Shown here: positions 9,735 to 37,265 of the stretch, piece after piece | Position numbering within the stretch: position 1 is the stretch's first letter | How the letters are laid out: each line of letters starts with the position of its first letter | Assembly (NCBI RefSeq): GCF_002252755.1 | Contig: NZ_NHOY01000124.1 | Coordinates: 1 to 40,219, forward strand | DNA: 40,219 nt | Reading direction: 5' to 3' | Origin: Halorubrum sp. Hd13 | GTDB taxonomy: Archaea > Halobacteriota > Halobacteria > Halobacteriales > Haloferacaceae | Position numbers and translations under genes: made by a program | The notes under the pieces: generated by a model | What the model saw: the letters and a program-made list of their open reading frames with translations, nothing else | The model's database searches: none | Told to the model about the DNA's origin: nothing

Positions 9735-9809
9735 GGGCGCTTAGCTCAGTCTGGATAGAGTGCTTGGCTTCGGACCAAGCTGTCGCGGGTTCAAATCCTG
9801 CAGCGCCCA
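9735..9809 (+). tRNA. tRNA-Arg, anticodon UCG
   Basis: The cloverleaf is complete. Acceptor stem GGGCGCT (9735-9741) pairs with AGCGCCC (9802-9808), with discriminator A9809. The D arm contains AGCTCAGTCTGGATAGAGT. Anticodon stem CTTGG/CCAAG encloses the loop CTTCGGA, giving anticodon TCG (Arg, CGA codons). The T arm is GCGGG-TTCAAAT-CCTGC with one G-U pair. No CCA is encoded. Its last 13 bases and two flanking bases recur exactly at 13544-13558, marking it as the integration site of the downstream island. Confidence 0.96.
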
Positions 9810-9811
9810 TG
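9797..9811 (+). other. Putative attL: 15-bp core at the tRNA-Arg 3' end
   Basis: CCTGCAGCGCCCATG covers the 3' strands of the T stem and acceptor stem plus two bases beyond the tRNA. The identical 15-mer lies in direct orientation at 13544-13558. A tRNA 3' end copied at the far side of a block is the usual mark left by a tyrosine-recombinase integration. Confidence 0.75.
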
Positions 9812-10146
9812 ATTTGAGGCGAAATAATCGCCAGACAGCGCGGCAATTATCGGTCGAACGGTCTAGACCTTGCTTTCGTTCGATGGGCGATTGGGCGAGT
9901 GGATGTCACCGGGATTCGCGTACAGCCAAACTGGCCACATTTAAAAAAACTAATCGCCGATTGACGAGTGGCCGTAGTTTTGCTTGTGAGCACAGAAACT
10001 AGACGGTAGATGTGGTTTCACACCCACTCGTGTTCTTCCCACCTTTCGTAATAGACGGTTCACAAGTAGATTGTGGCCACGTTTCCCCGTGGGACGAGGT
10101 TCTGATGACACAGGTTCTTACGAACGCATCAGAAGTCTATGGGGTG
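9812..10146. other. Intergenic, 335 bp, left end of the island
   Basis: This AT-richer stretch includes an A-run (9952-9957). No frame in it looks coding. The longest plus-strand frames (9760-10002 and 10012-10257) lack haloarchaeal composition or recognisable motifs. If an integrase was once encoded next to the tRNA it would be expected here, but I see no remnant. Confidence 0.5.
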
Positions 10147-10338
10147 TCACAGTTCATTGTCATTGACACTTCCCCGCCTGCCGTTCTCCGAACGGATGGT
10201 TTCGATCGCTCGGATACCCCAGTGGACTGTTACACCGATGCCGACGACGGCGAGTAGATGAACGATCACCCGAAACAGGTACTCCCCAAGGGTCAACCCC
10301 TGACCAGTGTGCAGTACGACGCCCGATATTAAACTCAT
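10147..10338 (-). CDS. Small single-helix membrane protein, last gene of the island operon
   Basis: This 63-residue product has one clear membrane segment (about residues 19-40, around LFRVIVHLLAVVGIGVTV), with a short N-terminus and a polar C-terminal tail of about 20 residues. It begins 28 bases after the upstream four-helix protein's stop, in the same direction, which supports translation as part of the operon. I do not recognise a family. The next gene upstream is also a membrane protein, so the two could form one complex; that is conjecture. Confidence 0.5.
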   Translation of the reverse strand: MSLISGVVLHTGQGLTLGEYLFRVIVHLLAVVGIGVTVHWGIRAIETIRSENGRRGSVNDNEL

Positions 10339-10366
10339 AAATGAAGGCAGGGCTCGGTGAAATCAG

Positions 10367-10864
10367 CTACGTAGTCTGAACTCCTCGGTACGACAGTACG
10401 ACCCCGACGATGAAGATAATCGTCGCCAGGTAGATCGGTCCGAGATGCGTCACCCAATCGTGAGCGAACGCATCTCCCGTCCAATGCATCGGTAACGCGA
10501 GCGCCAGGCCGACGACGGCACTGACGATCGCCGTCGCCCACGCCCAGGTGCGCCCCTGGCGCACGCCGTACCACGAGAGGCCCGCGACGGCGATGCCCGT
10601 TGAGATGATGAACGCAGCGGTGGCCACGTGGAGGTGACTGATGTAGTACGCCACCGTCGGATCGAGATCGGCGGCCGTCATCCCGGCCAGCGTACTGACT
10701 CCGAGTTCAAATCCACTCCCCACAAAGTTCAGCACGAGAAACACGACACCGTAGCCGACGAACGCGATTCCGGCGAGAGCCATCAGCGCCGCCCCCTTCC
10801 GGACCTGCGACTCGAACTGGACCTGTTCTCCCTGTTCGTCTGTGACTGATTTTTCTGTCGCCAT
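10367..10864 (-). CDS. Four-helix integral membrane protein of unknown function
   Basis: This 165-residue protein has a charged N-terminal tail (about 1-22) and then four predicted membrane spans near 24-48, 65-90, 97-117 and 135-155. Histidines occur near membrane boundaries (YYISHLHVATAA, LPMHWTGDAFAHDW). The ATG at 10864 lies five bases after the stop of the ArsM-like methyltransferase, so it is chosen over a frame extension that would overlap that gene. The layout recalls small DoxX- or cytochrome-b-like membrane proteins, but no signature proves a family. Co-expression with OsmC and a methyltransferase suggests a link to thiol or metalloid stress; this is inference. Confidence 0.75.
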   Translation of the reverse strand: MATEKSVTDEQGEQVQFESQVRKGAALMALAGIAFVGYGVVFLVLNFVGSGFELGVSTLAGMTAADLDPTVAYYISHLHVATAAFIISTGIAVAGLSWYGVRQGRTWAWATAIVSAVVGLALALPMHWTGDAFAHDWVTHLGPIYLATIIFIVGVVLSYRGVQTT

Positions 10865-10869
10865 ACTGA

Positions 10870-11637
10870 TCACTTCATTGCCCCGACCGTGACGCTCTTG
10901 ACACCGTACTTCTCGCACGCGTTGGCCGCCCGATCAGAGAGGAATTCGTACTGTGTGTTCTCTCGGATCTCCGTCACTGAGAAGCCAGCAGCTTCGATGA
11001 ACGTCGTGTAGCTGTCGATCTGTTCGGCACCACCGATACAGGCAGCCCACAGGTCCGCGTCGGACTTGATGCTCTCGGGCATCTGTTGTTCGCTGATGAT
11101 GTCGGACAGAGCCAGCTGCCCACCCGGTTTGAGCACCCGGTTCGCCTCCTCGAAGACCGTTCTCTTCTCGGCGGAAAGGTTGATTACGCCGTTCGAGACC
11201 ACCGCGTCGAACGATGCGTCCTCGAACGGGAGGTCCTCGATATACCCTTCGCGGAAGGTGACGTTGTGGAAGCCGTTGTCCGCTGCGAGGTCGTTGGCCT
11301 TCTCGACTTGCTCTGTGGTCATATCGATGCCCGTTACTGCACCCGTCTCAGTTACGTGTAGCCCGGCGACGAAGGCGTCCATCCCCGAGCCACTGCCGAG
11401 GTCAAGCACGTCCGCACCTGATTCAAGCGCTGCCAAGTCGAAGTAGTAGCCGACACCCGCGAACGAGTCGATCGCCGCGTCCGGAACGTAGTCAAGGTCG
11501 TCGGGGTCGTACCCGAGGCGGACGGCGAGATCGCGCCCCGTCTCGAAGTGGAACTCGGCGTCGGCGGACTCCGAGACATCCTGATATATCGACTTGACCT
11601 CGCGTTCGAGTTTGTCCGTGTCGAGTGATTCGCTCAT
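10870..11637 (-). CDS. ArsM/UbiE-like SAM methyltransferase
   Basis: This 255-residue class I methyltransferase has an architecture close to arsenite methyltransferase: an N-terminal segment RDLAVRLGYDPDDLDYVPDAA, motif I as VLDLGSGSGMDAFVAG, then TGIDMTTEQVEKA and NGVINLSAEKRTVFEEA. Two cysteines are present, in WAACIGGAEQ (matching the second ArsM cysteine) and in ANACEKYG. The N-terminal ArsM cysteine, usually in a GCGNP-like stretch, is replaced by FAGVGYYFD. Full arsenite methylation is therefore doubtful, and another soft nucleophile or metabolite may be the acceptor. Its start lies 13 bases after the OsmC stop. Confidence 0.82.
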   Translation of the reverse strand: MSESLDTDKLEREVKSIYQDVSESADAEFHFETGRDLAVRLGYDPDDLDYVPDAAIDSFAGVGYYFDLAALESGADVLDLGSGSGMDAFVAGLHVTETGAVTGIDMTTEQVEKANDLAADNGFHNVTFREGYIEDLPFEDASFDAVVSNGVINLSAEKRTVFEEANRVLKPGGQLALSDIISEQQMPESIKSDADLWAACIGGAEQIDSYTTFIEAAGFSVTEIRENTQYEFLSDRAANACEKYGVKSVTVGAMK

Positions 11638-11650
11638 TGGTTGTCACCGG

Positions 11651-12256
11651 TTAGTCGTCTCCGGCCACCTCGGCGGGCGAAGCGACGGCCATTTCGACGT
11701 CCTGAGCGAGCGAGACGAGCGTGTAGACGGGTGCCCGCCGTGCCCACTCGTCGATCTGGTCTTGATCAAGGTCCTCGCCGTCTATCTCAATTTCGGCGGT
11801 TAGGTTCTCGAACGCCGAGTCGGCCTCTTTGAGTTCCTTGAGGCTGAACAGCACCGCTGGATCGAAATCGGTCCGGACACGCGTCTGGAGGTGGTCGATG
11901 TCCACGTCATTGGCGGCGGCGTTGATCGTGATGCCGACGTTGATACAGGCGGCCAGCGCCGACAGCGCCGCTTCAATTGGCTCCATCCGGTCGGTCGCTC
12001 CGATCCATCCTCCCGCCTCCAACACTTCTTTCCAGCCCCCGTAGGGAATCGTGTATTCGCGCGTATCACGAGCGACCGTCTCTCCCCCGAGCTCGTAGCT
12101 ATCGATCTTTGCCAAGCTGTGGGCGGCCGTCCCCTCGTAGGTTGCTGACGCTTCGAGGCCGAGCTGGACAGCTTCGGGGTCGTCAGCTGCGTGTTCGGCG
12201 AACCCTTCGAGTGTTTCGAGGTCGATGCCGTGCGAGGTGTGCTGGTCGTCGGTCAT
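11651..12256 (-). CDS. OsmC/Ohr-family protein
   Basis: This 201-residue OsmC-fold protein has the family pattern of a central helix with the reactive cysteine: EAALSALAACINVGITINAAAN contains the conserved AxCxN-type cysteine. The second Ohr cysteine motif is not evident in the same helix region. The N-terminal beta sheet covers about 40-90. OsmC proteins reduce organic hydroperoxides or act on thiol-linked substrates. ATG 12256 is chosen over GTG 12265 because GGAGGTGA sits about eight bases upstream of the ATG. That Shine-Dalgarno also contains the stop of the preceding small gene, implying coupled translation. Confidence 0.85.
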   Translation of the reverse strand: MTDDQHTSHGIDLETLEGFAEHAADDPEAVQLGLEASATYEGTAAHSLAKIDSYELGGETVARDTREYTIPYGGWKEVLEAGGWIGATDRMEPIEAALSALAACINVGITINAAANDVDIDHLQTRVRTDFDPAVLFSLKELKEADSAFENLTAEIEIDGEDLDQDQIDEWARRAPVYTLVSLAQDVEMAVASPAEVAGDD

Positions 12257-12261
12257 GTGGG

Positions 12262-12492
12262 TCACCTCCCTGCCAGCGACGATACGACGGCAAAGATACT
12301 GTAGTTAATTTGTGATAGTCCGCCAGGAACTGCTGGCCTGGCAGTCGCTGCAAAATCATCACCCTCTGCGACCCGAGGACGGTCGGGACCGAACGCCTCC
12401 CCGGTCAACTCTAGGACGAACCCTTGGAACGAGCCGAGATTACAGCAGCCTACGCACCGATCAGTTTCAGTAATGAAATCGGTAATCTCCAT
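12262..12492 (-). CDS. 76-residue CxxCC protein, unknown function, translationally coupled to OsmC
   Basis: The frame starts at ATG 12492, one base after the regulator's TAG (12494-12496), and its TGA sits inside the OsmC Shine-Dalgarno. This exact packing argues that it is translated. The N-terminal third reads MEITDFITETDRCVGCCNLG, with three cysteines in a CxxCC cluster near residues 13-17. The rest is acidic then small and hydrophobic (SIFAVVSSLAG at the end), with no further cysteines. I recognise no family. A metal- or metalloid-binding or persulfide-carrying protein, or a substrate of the adjacent methyltransferase, would fit, but none is shown. Confidence 0.65.
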   Translation of the reverse strand: MEITDFITETDRCVGCCNLGSFQGFVLELTGEAFGPDRPRVAEGDDFAATARPAVPGGLSQINYSIFAVVSSLAGR

Positions 12493-12493
12493 T

Positions 12494-13306
12494 CTACGGG
12501 GGTTCGACTGGCTGAGCCTCTGACGCGTACGTGTCGCACACCGACTGTGCCCACTCACGGATAGCCGCTACGTCGGTGTCGATCAACACGTGGACCGTCC
12601 CACTGTCCTGTTCGTAACAGCTGATGGCGGCACGCTCATCGAGAAGACCAGTTCCACATGGAGGGAGGGAATCGTGCTCCAGAACGGTGAAATTGTCCTG
12701 TTGCATCATTTCTACGCTTCGCTCCGGGTACGTCGAAAGAAAGTACGTATGACTCTCCGGTCGAGCCACCAAGACCACGTCAACCCCCTCATCGATCAGT
12801 TGAACGAGAACCTCAAAGCACGGCTCCATCAAAGCAATTTCAGGGCGAACTAATCGAAGATCGTTCGTCTCTTTGAGAAGCGACTCGAATCGGTCGATCG
12901 GGCGGTACGGTGAATCGGGTTCGGCAACAGTGATGGTCATCGCGTCCCACGTCTCGATGGGAAACTCGCTGACCTCCTCAGGAAGCCAGTGCCAGACGTC
13001 ACGCAATTTTCGTTCTGTTTCGACCTGTTCGATCAGGTCCTGCATTGCTGAAGCTATCGCTTCACCGAGCCGGGTCGCTGTATACTGGTAGCCGTCTTTG
13101 CGGATCCAGACCCGGTCTTCGAACTCATCCAGTGTCCGCCGTATCGTGGAGGAGGAGACACCGGCCAACTCACAGAGTTCAGAGCGACTCCGGGGACGCT
13201 CTGTCAGCGCGACGAGTGTCGGAACGCGGTGTTCGGACCGCGCTAGATACGCGATGTCACTAATTGGTGACTCCGCATTTTGATGTGGTATGCTATCGTG
13301 ACCCAT
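12494..13306 (-). CDS. Winged-helix transcriptional regulator with FilR1-like sensor domain
   Basis: This 270-residue haloarchaeal regulator has an N-terminal winged helix (about 18-85: SEHRVPTLVALTERPRSRSE, then ELAGVSSSTIRRTLDEFEDR as the recognition region). A C-terminal domain of the type following such helices in FilR1/TrmB-like proteins covers about 115-265. Cysteines at EPCFEVL, PPCGTG, SCYEQD and SVCDTY could sense redox state or metals. It is the first gene of the six-gene island operon and probably controls it. The ATG at 13306 is supported by A/T-rich sequence upstream, though no clean TATA box is seen. Confidence 0.8.
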   Translation of the reverse strand: MGHDSIPHQNAESPISDIAYLARSEHRVPTLVALTERPRSRSELCELAGVSSSTIRRTLDEFEDRVWIRKDGYQYTATRLGEAIASAMQDLIEQVETERKLRDVWHWLPEEVSEFPIETWDAMTITVAEPDSPYRPIDRFESLLKETNDLRLVRPEIALMEPCFEVLVQLIDEGVDVVLVARPESHTYFLSTYPERSVEMMQQDNFTVLEHDSLPPCGTGLLDERAAISCYEQDSGTVHVLIDTDVAAIREWAQSVCDTYASEAQPVEPP

Positions 13307-13543
13307 AAATCAAGTACGTATACGAGCCTGAAAACGATTTACCCCACCTACACAACGATCGATAATAGAGTAGCCGAGTCATTTGCTGTGTTTGTCGAGG
13401 CAGCTAATTCGGGTGACTCTGCGCTATGTATCTCTCATCTGGTCACAGGACAGCATGTTAAGTGTCAAATTCTGGTCACACAAACTCTCCAATTCGGCCG
13501 CCTCACGTCTGAAAGGTCGATTCGTTCGGCGGTCGAACCGGAG
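13307..13543. promoter_or_regulatory. Upstream region of the island operon (promoter not resolved)
   Basis: This 237-base stretch, up to the right-hand core repeat, is AT-richer than the chromosome and holds no convincing gene. It must contain the promoter of the regulator-led operon. Candidate A/T elements lie around 13316-13342, but none is a clear TATA box at the expected distance. Confidence 0.45.
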
Positions 13544-13558
13544 CCTGCAGCGCCCATG
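13544..13558 (+). other. Putative attR: second copy of the 15-bp tRNA-Arg core
   Basis: The sequence is identical over 15 bases to the tRNA-Arg 3' end and flank at 9797-9811, same orientation. Sequences on either side do not form a tRNA, so it is an isolated core. Confidence 0.72.
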
Positions 13559-13666
13559 TACTTTTTCACCGCGAACACTCGGGTAGCAAGGCGTTTTTCG
13601 GCCGATTTAGCCTCCGTTTGGCACCGGCACAACCGTTATGAGTGGCGGAGATGAATCAAATCCCGC

Positions 13667-13792
13667 ATGCGAACCTCGACGATCGTCATCGTAGTGGGCG
13701 TGGTCGTGTTCGCTCTCCCGCTTCCGGGAACGTTCATCCTCGGCGGGATACTCGTGCTCGCGGGTGTCGTCGCGCGCTTGCTGGGCGCGTGA
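13667..13792 (+). CDS. 41-residue hydrophobic membrane protein
   Basis: The frame starts at ATG 13667 and stops at TGA 13790-13792. The product has two closely spaced hydrophobic helices: a segment around STIVIVVGVVVFALPLPG, a turn at PGTFILGG, and a second segment ending VVARLLGA. Proteins of this size with a P-x-P-G turn are common in haloarchaeal genomes. It lies just outside the island, so it would originally have followed the tRNA. Function unknown; called from hydrophobicity, codon use and clean ends. Confidence 0.6.
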   Translation: MRTSTIVIVVGVVVFALPLPGTFILGGILVLAGVVARLLGA

Positions 13793-14126
13793 GAGCCACG
13801 GGAGAATTGAATGCAATTCGTCCGGCTCGCCCTTCTCTTCCTCTCTGCGAGGACCCGTGACTCCCGGAGTCGCGCGTCTCGGGTGAGCCCGTGTCTCGGG
13901 TGAGCCGGCGTCTCAGTCGACGGTCCGCGAGCGCAGTCTCCGAGCCACCGGGACCCGACCGCTCTCGCCCGGGTCCCCCTCGGCCGTGCGAGTTCGAAAC
14001 GCGCTCCGGTGAAACCCGCAGAATCCGGGATGGGTGACGGACGGACTCCGACGTACGTATTACGATATCGACACGACTATGCGAGCCGGATGCGGCCCGA
14101 GACATCCGTTCGAACGGGGGCGCAAC
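13793..14126. other. Intergenic, 334 bp
   Basis: GC-rich sequence with a short near-direct repeat (GTCTCGGGTGAGCC at 13877 and 13891). Frames here are arginine- or serine-rich and unlike haloarchaeal proteins. I see no gene. Confidence 0.5.
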
Positions 14127-14315
14127 TCAGTATCCGCCTCCGTCATCGAAACAGCGACCGCATTTCGTAGCGTTCGTGACGAGACCGTCGGTGGACACTC
14201 GACGAAGGTGATCGGCTGCGACGTTGTACGTGACCCCACAAGGGGTTTCGACTGTTGATGCGCCGGGCACCCGTTTGTGAACCGTGTTCGTCACTTCGTT
14301 TAGTATCCGTTCCAT
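14127..14315 (-). CDS. Small cysteine protein (62 residues), probable metal-binding
   Basis: The product starts MERILNEVTNTVHKRVPG and carries ETPCGVTYN and, near the end, TKCGRCFDDGGGY, giving three to four potential metal ligands (C, CxxC, nearby histidines). ATG 14315 is preferred over 14330 because a TATA-like TTATGCATA is centred about 24 bases upstream of 14315. Codon use is haloarchaeal though less GC-rich than the core. It lies alone between the tRNA-Arg island and an IS element. Function unknown. Confidence 0.6.
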   Translation of the reverse strand: MERILNEVTNTVHKRVPGASTVETPCGVTYNVAADHLRRVSTDGLVTNATKCGRCFDDGGGY

Positions 14316-14334
14316 GTGATCAATACGCATGCAA

Positions 14335-14343
14335 TATGCATAA
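14335..14343 (-). promoter_or_regulatory. TATA-like box for the small cysteine protein
   Basis: Minus-strand TTATGCATA lies about 24 bases from the ATG at 14315, within a partly palindromic GCATGCAATATGCAT stretch. Confidence 0.4.
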
Positions 14344-14571
14344 CGCGTTCACTTGGTGGATCAGGGTTCGTAACCCCGTCTAACTGCTGTTCGGAACGGA
14401 AGGGCTCGCGTCCGACAAACGGAACGGGCCTGTGCCTCCCGGGCGGCGCGAGCGCTCCGCGCCGACGGGCGGTCCACCGAGAGGAACGAGCCGTCGCCGA
14501 CGTAGCGGCCCGACGTTCGACGTCTATATCGTCGCCCCGGAGGCAACTCCGTCGGTGTTACCGAAGGCCAG

Positions 14572-15503
14572 GGCCTTGTTTAGACGCTCGAATTCACGTG
14601 GTTCAGGCGGTGAGAGACTGCTCGATGTTTCTGATGGCGGCCTTTAGGACGATCTCTCGAAACTGACCAAACCACGTTCTGGCTTTAATCGTCGAGCCGA
14701 ATCGTTTGCGCAGCGCGAAAAATATCGATTCAACGATAGATCGTCGATGGTACGTTTCATCATCAATCCGAGCATTGTGAGCGGCATCAAGCGAGTAGAA
14801 TTCACGGTGCTTGATCACCGGTCTGATGCCTTCTTCACGCAGCATATGACGGATTTCGTCCCAGTCAAAGCCTTTGTCGGCGACTACAGTTCCTAGCTGT
14901 TCGAGATTTCTCGTGAGGACTTGCCACGCGATCTGTGTGTCGTGTGGAAGGTTCTTTGAGCAGTGAACGTCGAGGATTGCTCTCGTCGAGCAATCCACGA
15001 GAAGCGTGGTTTTAACCGACTCAAACGTGCCTTTGACACGCTTCGCGTAGTTGTGGCTGGACGAACGATGAGCGAGACTGGTGGAGTCGATGGCCTGAAT
15101 CTCTCCAGTATCAAATAGATTCACAGACAGCCGCAACAGCACTCGCCAGACGCGCATCTTCAGCGCTTGCTTCCGAGCACAAACCGTGGTGAAGTCCGGC
15201 AACTCCTCGACCGACAGCCCGAGTTTCTCCACGATATCAGGCATTTCACGGAGGATATCGAGGAGTCGGCGGTACGGAAGGTCGAGGTATTCGCGGAGTC
15301 CGTGGAGAGTGATGATCACCCAGTCAGCGTAGCCACCTCCCCCTTTCTTGACAGGCTGATTTCCGTCACTCCCGACAGCTTTTTGAGACAAAGCCACACA
15401 TCGGTCGGTGAAGCGGGCGAGTTTCGAAGGCACATCGAACTCTGCTCGCTTCACTTCCTCGAAATCACGCCGTTCAGGCAATATTCTTAGCGTCTAAACA
15501 CAG
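14572..15503 (-). mobile_element. IS5-family insertion sequence, complete (about 932 bp)
   Basis: A single transposase gene nearly fills the element. Terminal inverted repeats are clear: TGTTTAGACGCT at 14577-14588 and its reverse complement at 15489-15500. The 11-bp direct repeat CCGAAGGCCAG flanks it at 14561-14571 and 15504-15514, consistent with a target duplication and setting the approximate ends. Eleven bp is on the long side for this family, so the exact boundaries may shift by a few bases. The intact gene and flanking repeats suggest a fairly recent insertion. Confidence 0.8.
14603..15481 (-). CDS. IS5-family transposase
   Basis: This 292-residue DDE transposase appears intact. The catalytic triad is visible: Asp at about 132 in QAIDSTSLAHR, Asp at about 202 in VVADKGFDWDE, and Glu at about 251 in RSIVESIFFALRKRFG, the IS5-type YxxR-like context being HRRSIVES. 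The N-terminal third carries a helix-rich DNA-binding region (LREYLDLPYRRLLDILRE). The start MPERRDFEEV lies eight bases inside the right inverted repeat. Confidence 0.9.
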   Translation of the reverse strand: MPERRDFEEVKRAEFDVPSKLARFTDRCVALSQKAVGSDGNQPVKKGGGGYADWVIITLHGLREYLDLPYRRLLDILREMPDIVEKLGLSVEELPDFTTVCARKQALKMRVWRVLLRLSVNLFDTGEIQAIDSTSLAHRSSSHNYAKRVKGTFESVKTTLLVDCSTRAILDVHCSKNLPHDTQIAWQVLTRNLEQLGTVVADKGFDWDEIRHMLREEGIRPVIKHREFYSLDAAHNARIDDETYHRRSIVESIFFALRKRFGSTIKARTWFGQFREIVLKAAIRNIEQSLTA

Positions 15504-16304
15504 CCGAAGGCCAGTGTTCCGTGCCACACGGCCAAAATACCGATTCAGTATACTACCTTGGTATATTATGTATTCAGATTAAATCGAAGTAGCGATCCGG
15601 TCGCGACTGGATACGCGAATCCGGTCCGCGAAGCGTGACGGATGAATATTAATTAAGCTGATAAAAATTCGATAGCGTCTCCCTCATTGAGATCACGAAT
15701 CGCCTTGATGCACGGAGATGCAGGCCGCACACTGCCGTCAATCTCGAATTAAAGTATAGTGATACGTACGGATCGAGTCGACGAGACCGAGACCGTCGGC
15801 CGGGCCTTCGCGACGATCGGCGACGAACACTACGCAGATGGCGCGACCTCACCCGTTAGTCGTGCGACCTCGTTCGTCGATGACCCGATACTGTCCGTCT
15901 ACGGGGCGGTTCCGCATCGGCGATCCCCTGCGAAACCGGTCATCGATGTGGGGAACGACGCGGAGATCGGTATGCGGATAAACACATACGTCAAAATATA
16001 CTATCTAGGAATTACCATATATAATAAATAACTAGGGTACGGAAGTTAAAACCGCCCATGAGCGGTTCGGATCGGTCGCTATCGCACTGGCGCTGTTCGT
16101 CTAAACGGCGCGTCGGATCGGATTCGCGGATCTATCCGATCCGTCGCACTCTTTCTGACGCTTCGTCGAGCGGCGATCGCCGGTCTGCCAGCATCAGTGG
16201 GACGCACGCCGAACGAATCCGATCGGAATCACGTGTACAGTCGTTCAACGGAATTCGATACATGACTCCGTATTTTCATATCCGATCCCGACGTGTCGAC
16301 GGCC
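15504..16304. other. Accessory AT-rich intergenic, about 800 bp, with a possible gene remnant
   Basis: No full gene is supported. A minus-strand frame at 15653-15748 ends with CIKAIRDLNEGDAIEFLSA and a TAA, reading like the C-terminus of a small protein (faintly like a TusA-type sulfur carrier) with no start, so it may be a decayed remnant. The remainder is AT-rich (15540-15580, 16000-16035) and includes the promoter of the exchanger gene at its right end. Confidence 0.45.
16271..16280 (+). promoter_or_regulatory. TATA-like box for the CaCA exchanger
   Basis: TATTTTCATA is centred about 30 bases upstream of ATG 16305. Confidence 0.55.
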
Positions 16305-17555
16305 ATGAACGGCTCTCGGCTGGTCGTCGCCTCGCTCGTGGTCGCGGTGCTCTTGGCGGTCCCGGTCGCTCCCGCGGCCGCACAGGAGGGGGGCGAAGCG
16401 GCGGAGGAGTCGGGTGAAGGCGGTATCGAAGGACAGATCGAGGGCTTCGTCGAGGAGCTCGGAGCGGCGGAGGAGTCGGGTGAAGGCGGTATCGAAGGAC
16501 AGATCGAGGGCTTCGTCGAGGAGCTCGGAGCGGCGGGCGCCGTGGCCGTGCTCGTCGCCGGTGGCGTCGTACTGACCGTCTGTGTCGAGAAGCTGATAAG
16601 TTACCTCACCCGGGCGGCGCTGGGGTTGCGAGTGTCGCTGTTCACCCTCGCGATCATCTTCACCGGGATCGAGTTCGACGACGCGGTCCTCGCGCTCGTG
16701 TTGTCCGCGGGCGACCTCGAGGGAGTCGCGCTCGGAACGGCGCTCGGCACGGGGCTGGCGATCCTCGGCTTCACGCTGGCGCTCGCCGCGATCGTCAGGC
16801 CGTTCCCGGTCGACCTCCCGACGGACTACGTCGTCCTCTTCGCGCTGGGTCCGATACTGCTGGTCCCGTTCGTACTCGCGGGGACCCTGACGACCGTCCA
16901 CGGGGTGGTGCTCCTCGGCTTCTTCCTCCTGGCGTTCGGGTACATCGTCCTCCGCGAGCGCCAGCGCGACACGCCGGTGTTTCGCAACACCGAGCTCGGC
17001 GAATCGATCAGGGCCGACGGCGGGGTCGCAGCGCCGCGGGCCCTCTCGGAGATTCCGGAAGACCGGCTCGTCGGCGGTCGGTCCGCGTCCGGGTGGCCGT
17101 GGATGGCGCTCGCCGTCCTCGCGCTGGCCGGGATCGTGTTCGCGTCGATGCTGCTCGAGGCCGGTTCGGAGGTCGTCGTGGAGGGGTTCGGCCTCGAACA
17201 GACCGTCTTCGGCGCCACCGTACTGACGGCGATCCTGACGTTCGAGGACGTCATGCTCACGATCGAGCCGGTGCGGCGGGGCGTCCCGGAGATCGGCGTG
17301 GGGAACGTCATCGGGAGCGTCCTCTTCTCGGTGACCGGCAACGTCGGCGTCATCATGCTGCTCAGCGACCTCGAGATCTCTCGGTCGGTCCTGACGTTCC
17401 ACCTCCCGTCGGTGGTCCTCGTCACGACGCTGGCGGCGTACTTCCTCTACTCGGGAGAGCTGAAGCGCTGGCACGGGGTCGTCCTCGGCGGGCTCTACGC
17501 CGTGTACTGGGTGGTCGCGATCCTCGTCTTCGGCGGCGTTCCGATCGGCGGGTGA
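16305..17555 (+). CDS. CaCA-family cation (Na+/Ca2+-type) exchanger
   Basis: This 416-residue integral membrane protein has two inverted-topology alpha-repeat regions: SLFTLAIIFTGIEFDDAVLA (about 110-130) and TVLTAILTFEDVMLTIEPVR (about 305-325). Each has an acidic residue in the first helix of the repeat, and GVGNVIGSVLFSVTGN follows the second, as in sodium/calcium exchangers. An N-terminal signal-like segment (MNGSRLVV... to APAAAQ) precedes an acidic loop that contains an exact 22-residue tandem duplication. ATG 16305 is chosen over GTG 16293 because it starts the signal peptide and fits the TATA spacing. The transported ion is not fixed by sequence. Confidence 0.82.
   Translation: MNGSRLVVASLVVAVLLAVPVAPAAAQEGGEAAEESGEGGIEGQIEGFVEELGAAEESGEGGIEGQIEGFVEELGAAGAVAVLVAGGVVLTVCVEKLISYLTRAALGLRVSLFTLAIIFTGIEFDDAVLALVLSAGDLEGVALGTALGTGLAILGFTLALAAIVRPFPVDLPTDYVVLFALGPILLVPFVLAGTLTTVHGVVLLGFFLLAFGYIVLRERQRDTPVFRNTELGESIRADGGVAAPRALSEIPEDRLVGGRSASGWPWMALAVLALAGIVFASMLLEAGSEVVVEGFGLEQTVFGATVLTAILTFEDVMLTIEPVRRGVPEIGVGNVIGSVLFSVTGNVGVIMLLSDLEISRSVLTFHLPSVVLVTTLAAYFLYSGELKRWHGVVLGGLYAVYWVVAILVFGGVPIGG
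16398..16529 (+). repeat. 66-bp perfect tandem duplication inside the exchanger gene
   Basis: Units 16398-16463 and 16464-16529 are identical and in frame. They duplicate 22 residues (AAEESGEGG, IEGQIEGFVEELG) of the acidic extracytoplasmic loop between the signal segment and the first exchanger helix. Identity at synonymous sites implies a recent event. Confidence 0.95.
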
Positions 17556-36831: not shown

Positions 36832-37265
36832 GCTGTCGCATCGCGGCCCACCACTCCCCGGCGCCGACCGCGTTCGTCGACGAGGTCGCGCGTGTCCTCG
36901 AACCGGGCGTGACCCTCGCCTTCGAGGACAACGTCTCCCCCGCGGACGACGACCTCGACGCCTTCCTCAACGACGTGGAGCGGCTCCGCGACCCGACGCA
37001 CGTCCGGTCACACGCCGTCGCCGACTGGATCGAGTGGCTCGAGGGCGCCGGGTTCACCGTCGAGACCGCGAGCGTCGCGAGCAAGCGCATCGCGTTCGGC
37101 GAGTGGGTCGCGAACGTCGACGCGTCGGCCGAGCGCCGCGAGCGGATCGCCGCCGCGTTCGAGGCGGCGCCGCCCGGCGCCGCGGAGCGGTTCGAGTTCG
37201 CCCGCGAGGGCGGGCGGATCGAGTCGTTCGCCAATCTCAAATTGCTCGTCAAAGCGACCCGATGA
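36816..37265 (+). pseudogene. 5'-truncated SAM methyltransferase remnant
   Basis: From 36816 the frame reads SFDAVSCRIAAHHSPAPTAF, then DEVARVLEPGVTLAFEDNVS and on to FANLKLLVKATR, the complete C-terminal half of a ubiE-like methyltransferase (motif-I and SAM-binding half missing). Upstream the frame continues only as arginine-rich antisense-like sequence inside the preceding gene, with no plausible start. The join is abrupt, so a deletion removed roughly the first 80 codons and fused the remnant to the neighbouring gene's 3' end. It is not expected to be an active enzyme. Confidence 0.8.

Follow-up and report, generated by a model that had tools for sequence, protein, structure and literature searches.

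The described systems closest to the locus reported here are cis-mobilizable elements, tRNA-targeted islands and integrons. Cis-mobilizable elements (CIMEs) have lost their integration and transfer genes, keep the left and right attachment sites (attL and attR), and often lie in tandem with other elements (PMC5704250). Tyrosine integrases direct islands to tRNA genes (PMC4383910, PMC8371274), and haloarchaeal integrated elements that lack an integrase have been reviewed and attributed to its loss (PMC8371274). Archaeal integrons, with IntI and attC sites, were described in a study whose main text does not name haloarchaea under the names searched (PMC9668308). Here we analyse a block in Halorubrum sp. 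Hd13 that is bounded by copies of a tRNA-Arg(UCG) 3′ end. The window, by which we mean the whole 40,219-nucleotide stretch studied (NZ_NHOY01000124.1), is contig C51 of a 3.81-Mb Halorubrum assembly (G000), and repeat counts cover the entire assembly.

Judged from its ends, the block with cores at 9797 and 13544 is a site-specific element: an arm and a tRNA-derived core mark both its left and its right side, and it has no integrase. Comparison with other genomes places it in a widespread set of small passenger cassettes that have shared ends and had not been named before. The explanation we favour, and hold to be somewhat probable, is that an arm-linked integrase family moves the block in trans, as an integrative cassette that is not autonomous; trans-mobilisation is an inference. 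Gene exchange is heavy in halophilic archaea, and how small adaptive operons reach the same site across genera is mostly unexplained. We found no account of this haloarchaeal cassette family in the open-access literature, which is no proof of its absence.

Exact tRNA-derived cores bound a block without an integrase

The features that define the element are:

9735..9809, plus strand: tRNA-Arg(UCG) gene (ARAGORN), its 3′ end being the attachment target
9797..9811, plus strand: left core, the tRNA 3′ end plus TG, CCTGCAGCGCCCATG (exact repeat)
9812..9965, plus strand: left attachment arm, conserved also where the cargo is unrelated, e.g. at 83% over 172 bp in a Halopenitus persicus unit
13491..13543, plus strand: right attachment arm, 80-94% identity to the arms of other units
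13544..13558, plus strand: right core, an exact copy of the tRNA 3′ end (exact repeat)

In the whole assembly the 15-bp core has just two exact copies, those at 9797 and 13544. Base composition predicts about 2e-5 copies in the next 3.8 kb and 0.03 genome-wide, so the repeat is not a chance one. The first-pass annotation of this DNA had noted the exact 15-base repeat at 13544, had read it as an element targeted to the tRNA 3′ end, and had named wide occurrence of the 15-mer at unrelated positions as what would speak against that reading; the repeat, its confinement to the two boundaries and the targeting all hold. Equally, no integrase had been visible, and none was detected, whole or as a recognisable fragment, inside the 3.75-kb block by Pfam and NCBIfam searches of all open reading frames (ORFs) or by tblastn with five integrases. 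By the same searches the block is free of integration and transfer genes, as CIMEs are.

Lower guanine-plus-cytosine (GC) content, which had also been taken to mark the island, was rejected. GC content is 57.7% in the block and about 70% in the far flanks, but the adjoining chromosome at 13559-16250 is equally low at 56.8%, so low GC fails to define the island; this same flank is present in G009, a sister species. A native tRNA trailer was considered for the left arm, similar sequence following the tRNA in many relatives, and was set aside as the principal reading, since this arm is likewise seen behind cores between tandem units and on contigs and plasmids that have no tRNA. In many Halorubrum genomes the roughly 150 nt past the tRNA (equivalents of 9812-9960) hold several arm types, short palindromes and a TATA-like box, and may be either arms of other element families or native trailers.

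Conserved arms, their joined junction and a probable recombinase

The right arm was aligned across 14 sites and the left arm across 12, both with 70-94% identity across families. When units are compared in pairs, similarity ends abruptly at the arms and the cargo inside is unrelated. A third core in the assembly, a 14-mer on contig C79, has no tRNA. Up to and including this core, 67 bp match the block's right end with 91% identity; starting at the core, 170 bp match its left end with 76% identity. Because C79 fuses right-arm to left-arm matches, the block's two ends occur joined there, the layout expected of an attP or of a junction between tandem units. The same head-to-tail order of right arm, core and left arm, without a tRNA, is found on megaplasmids as well as on C79, and it also occurs between tandem units. 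A PIN toxin gene lies beside the C79 junction, and ParA- and Orc1/Cdc6-type proteins were recognised on this contig by ORF reading. C79 may be a plasmid; an integrase of the arm-linked type was not found on it.

A tyrosine integrase starts about 50 bp from the right arm in Halorubrum halophilum (G014), Natrinema zhouii and Natronomonas aquatica. The arm-linked integrases are of one type, 83-95% identical to that of G014. Because this one type stands beside the right arm at near-constant distance in three genera, it is the probable cognate recombinase. An intact integrase of this type is oriented towards the junction, at a distance of about 100-118 bp, in N. zhouii, G083, G308 and G378; across the junction from it stands an integrase-less unit. 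A related integrase from Halorubrum aidingense (G002) contains PF00589 and a phage SAM-like domain, and both integrases tested matched phage integrase PHROGs. The arm junction itself was unmatched in the phage collection; the core was found on one viral contig.

A widespread family of integrase-less units

A 224-bp junction was matched in 87 of 392 genomes, representing 40 of the 95 genera of the order, and on nine plasmid records. Direct inspection of loci with paired arms yielded about 30 arm-bounded units without an intact integrase, a number that gives no rate, the units coming partly from genomes picked for two arm hits. These units range from 0.9 to 10 kb, many start at tRNA-Arg(UCG), and most of those inspected hold no trace of an integrase. 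Their cargo includes a TetR-ABC exporter, histidine kinases, a metallo-hydrolase, a PIN toxin and an arsenite methyltransferase-arsN2 pair, among others, and a regulator is present in many cassettes. G277 has three consecutive integrase-less units at tRNA-Arg; a Natrinema megaplasmid also has three in a row, and then a broken integrase. The conserved arms and the membership in a large, mostly integrase-less cassette family lie beyond what the first-pass annotation had seen.

Individual cassettes are shared between genera. The window's operon is present at the tRNA-Arg(UCG) of G305, a genome of another genus in the same family, with 90.2% identity over 3,520 bp to the right core; the chromosomal flank there is unrelated to the window's, and four of the operon proteins are 89-96% identical. 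A 0.95-kb PIN cassette can be aligned core to core at 84% between G251 and G391 and at 82% with G315 (three genera, two families), and its right part also occurs in G362, G039, G282 and C79. This minimal cassette, a PIN-domain toxin gene between both arms, was seen in several genera. Another cassette is common to G308, G083 and Halorientalis (86-97%), and an OsmC-methyltransferase cassette is found on a Natrinema plasmid, a Haloprofundus plasmid and in the chromosomal tRNA-Arg array of G277 (84-88%). Were every such unit no more than a dead remnant, this recurrence of integrase-less cassettes across genera would be difficult to account for.

tRNA-Arg(UCG) is a variably occupied hot spot

Among the 52 genomes (species) of our Halorubrum comparison set, close full-length copies of the block's methyltransferase occur in G000, G028 and G040 only, and at this tRNA in G000 only. 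This single occurrence, together with the same cassette at tRNA-Arg(UCG) in G305, bears out the earlier suggestion that the operon is transferable. In G009 the window is collinear on both sides at about 90% identity, yet a 30.6-kb island (G009:C2:334972-365600) stands at the same point, bounded by the core repeat and with an integrase beside the right repeat; occupation of the core by integrase-bearing elements was among the things that the first-pass annotation had proposed to look for. The G009 cargo, with DrmD/DrmMI/DruE-like, DUF262 (HEC-05), TIR and integrase genes, constitutes a defence island in the same attachment site.

Other species add further states. H. aidingense carries two tandem units, one of 9.28 kb with an integrase and one of 5.37 kb without; in G008 an 8-kb unit with an integrase precedes one of 0.84 kb, and G039 has a 4.86-kb integrase-less unit. 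G045 is nearly empty: its tRNA lies 267 bp from the flank gene that also borders the occupied sites of G039 and G008, and its right flank differs from that of the block. The tRNA-Arg(UCG) site is an integration hot spot, with variable occupancy and a near-empty state. A second hot spot was noticed at tRNA-Arg(CCG) (G000:C27:64000-83990), where related integrases and right arms occur in many Halorubrum species. The operon copy of G028 lies 21 kb from the same tRNA, has no arms and stands alongside cobalamin-type genes; we set it aside as probably a coincidence.

Proposed movement in trans and its alternatives

Under the explanation favoured here, a tyrosine integrase of the H. halophilum, N. 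zhouii and N. aquatica type would bind the arms in trans, excise the cassette as a circle, and insert the circle at the 3′ end of tRNA-Arg(UCG), restoring the tRNA gene, or at an existing core, so that cassettes would stack in arrays. The cargo carried would be a small self-regulated operon of a regulator, an OsmC-like protein, an ArsM-like methyltransferase and two small membrane proteins.

Several points weigh against this account. Excision, the circle and integrase activity are predictions from sequence. The G305 copy is without the left arm, its core being joined directly to sequence that matches the window from 10040 onward. Among the relatives compared, no empty site with exactly the two flanks of the block was found; the locus comparison that the first-pass annotation had proposed turned up the different island in G009 and the near-empty site of G045. 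The tally of units, as said, is no rate. Integrase fragments or broken integrases are present in G348, G234 and the Natrinema plasmid, and because of these remains at least some units are decayed elements. Movement could also proceed by homologous recombination in the shared ends.

If decay were the only process, the integrase-less units would be stranded, CIME-like remnants of autonomous islands whose integrase was lost after integration and whose site-specific movement has ended. The broken or partial integrases just named lie at the expected place, tiny remnants of 93-168 bp with degenerate cores are common past tRNA-Arg(UCG), and loss after integration is what the review of haloarchaeal elements proposes (PMC8371274). 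We nevertheless regard decay alone as rather unlikely: the same cassettes, though integrase-less, reappear from core to core in separate genera and on plasmids, conservation of both arms across families is at the level given above, and most inspected units are devoid of integrase traces.

Spread mainly by recombination between shared arms, tRNA genes and megaplasmid arrays, with no active integrase, appears more improbable again. The tRNA could act as an anchor, as could the arms (67-170 bp, 70-94% identity); the G039 unit is a mosaic, its left end being that of G008 unit 1 and its right end that of C79; and the left end of the G305 copy differs. Against this stand junctions at the tRNA-derived core and no flanking homology between genera, as site-specific integration predicts. 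Short, diverged arms are poor substrates for homologous recombination, which also counts against this route.

That the block is a resident operon next to a chance or unrelated tRNA-end repeat, with no mobile element, is hardly credible: the copies in G028 and on several plasmids have no arms nearby, so the operon does exist independently of this element, but the 15-mer is confined to two places in the genome, the right arm is conserved in many genomes, the same unit sits at the same tRNA in another genus, and the C79 arm fusion, the arm alignments and the cross-genus copies already contradict it.

Cargo operon and other features of the window

Five supported genes and a probable leader or promoter region lie between the cores, all on the minus strand:

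10147..10338, minus strand: 63-aa membrane-type protein, the operon's last gene; 85-87% identity to the G028 and G305 copies
10367..10864, minus strand: 165-aa four-helix membrane-type protein with no Pfam family; 76-96% identity to relatives
10870..11637, minus strand: 255-aa ArsM-like methyltransferase without two of three arsenic-binding cysteines
11651..12256, minus strand: OsmC-family protein with a single conserved cysteine
12257..12493, minus strand: probable leader or promoter region, holding a non-conserved 76-aa ORF (12262-12492)
12494..13306, minus strand: 270-aa winged-helix regulator, HVO_A0261_N plus FilR1_middle

The first-pass annotation had counted six co-directional genes. 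Their direction and gaps were essentially correct, and the operon is indeed headed by its own regulator; the sixth gene, the 76-aa ORF, is broken by stops in G028 and G305 and absent from plasmid relatives, and is for these reasons probably no gene but the leader or promoter region of the OsmC gene.

The 255-aa methyltransferase belongs to the same S-adenosylmethionine (SAM)-methyltransferase family as the arsenite methyltransferase ArsM, and its closest PDB relatives are ArsM proteins. It differs at the arsenic-binding cysteines, which we take to be C72, C174 and C224 in CmArsM numbering: C72 is replaced by Val and C174 by Gly in all eight members of its clade (8/8), whereas canonical haloarchaeal ArsM controls keep all three (4/4, a count that leaves out two more controls read in a wrong frame). 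Arsenic methylation was rejected as the cargo function, being unlikely with two of the three cysteines missing. The OsmC fold is supported (PF02566, 35.5 bits, above the cut-off), but the two redox-active cysteines of OsmC peroxidases were not found, one cysteine being conserved in 7 homologues. Of the role in thiol, metalloid or peroxide stress that was first proposed, the metalloid and peroxide chemistry is thus not supported, the diagnostic cysteines being missing. An AlphaFold2 model of the 165-aa protein (predicted local distance difference test score, pLDDT, 56) was not used. Tentatively, the cargo could be a regulated operon that detoxifies some small molecule, reactive or toxic but different from arsenite. 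Overall, the first-pass interpretation is partly supported.

In the right flank, an IS5-family transposase gene (14603-15481) lies within a unit at 14572-15505 with short terminal inverted repeats; the unit is probably a separate insertion, and the corresponding G009 stretch fails to align there. A 66-bp tandem duplication occupies 16386-16517, near the start of a Na/Ca-exchanger-like gene. ARAGORN made a second tRNA-Arg(UCG) call at 37129-37211, in a high-GC region, which is possibly a false positive.

Comparison with known systems

If the favoured explanation is true, these units add archaea to the cases in which passenger cassettes rely on an integrase encoded by a different element. The recognisable arm pair makes the question testable: cassettes can be listed in any haloarchaeal genome, the integrase that moves them can be predicted, and a transfer assay can be built in Haloferax.

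The block resembles CIMEs in having no integration genes while retaining attL and attR (cores and arms), and its family in that units at a tRNA 3′ end form tandems with elements that carry an integrase. It differs from them in that these units are archaeal, start from 0.9 kb, keep both arms family-wide over many genera, and recur as the same integrase-less units between genera and on megaplasmids; no conjugation genes were seen in the inspected units. With tRNA-targeted tyrosine-integrase islands (Islander, PMC4383910; archaeal tyrosine recombinases, PMC8371274) they share the tRNA 3′ core, the restored tRNA and the variable cargo, and the family's autonomous units have an integrase at the right end; unlike such islands, the window unit and about 30 others are without an intact one.

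Integron arrays (PMC9668308) offer a further likeness, with tandem cassettes between recombination sites, the 5′ end of the integrase facing the first site and the cassettes beyond. It is possible, though we think it doubtful, that the family works as an integron-like platform unrelated to integrons, in which a dedicated tyrosine integrase family at tRNA-Arg(UCG) would capture and stack integrase-less operon cassettes through the shared right arm-core-left arm site, with megaplasmid arrays serving as reservoirs; arrays could then be stabilised by the smallest cassettes, which consist of a PIN toxin module and the arms. Integron cassettes are usually single promoterless ORFs with attC, whereas those described here, the window's included, are whole multi-gene operons, often with their own regulator. 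Their sites are long double-arm junctions around a tRNA core, set apart from attC by layout, and the integrase matches phage-type tyrosine integrase families.

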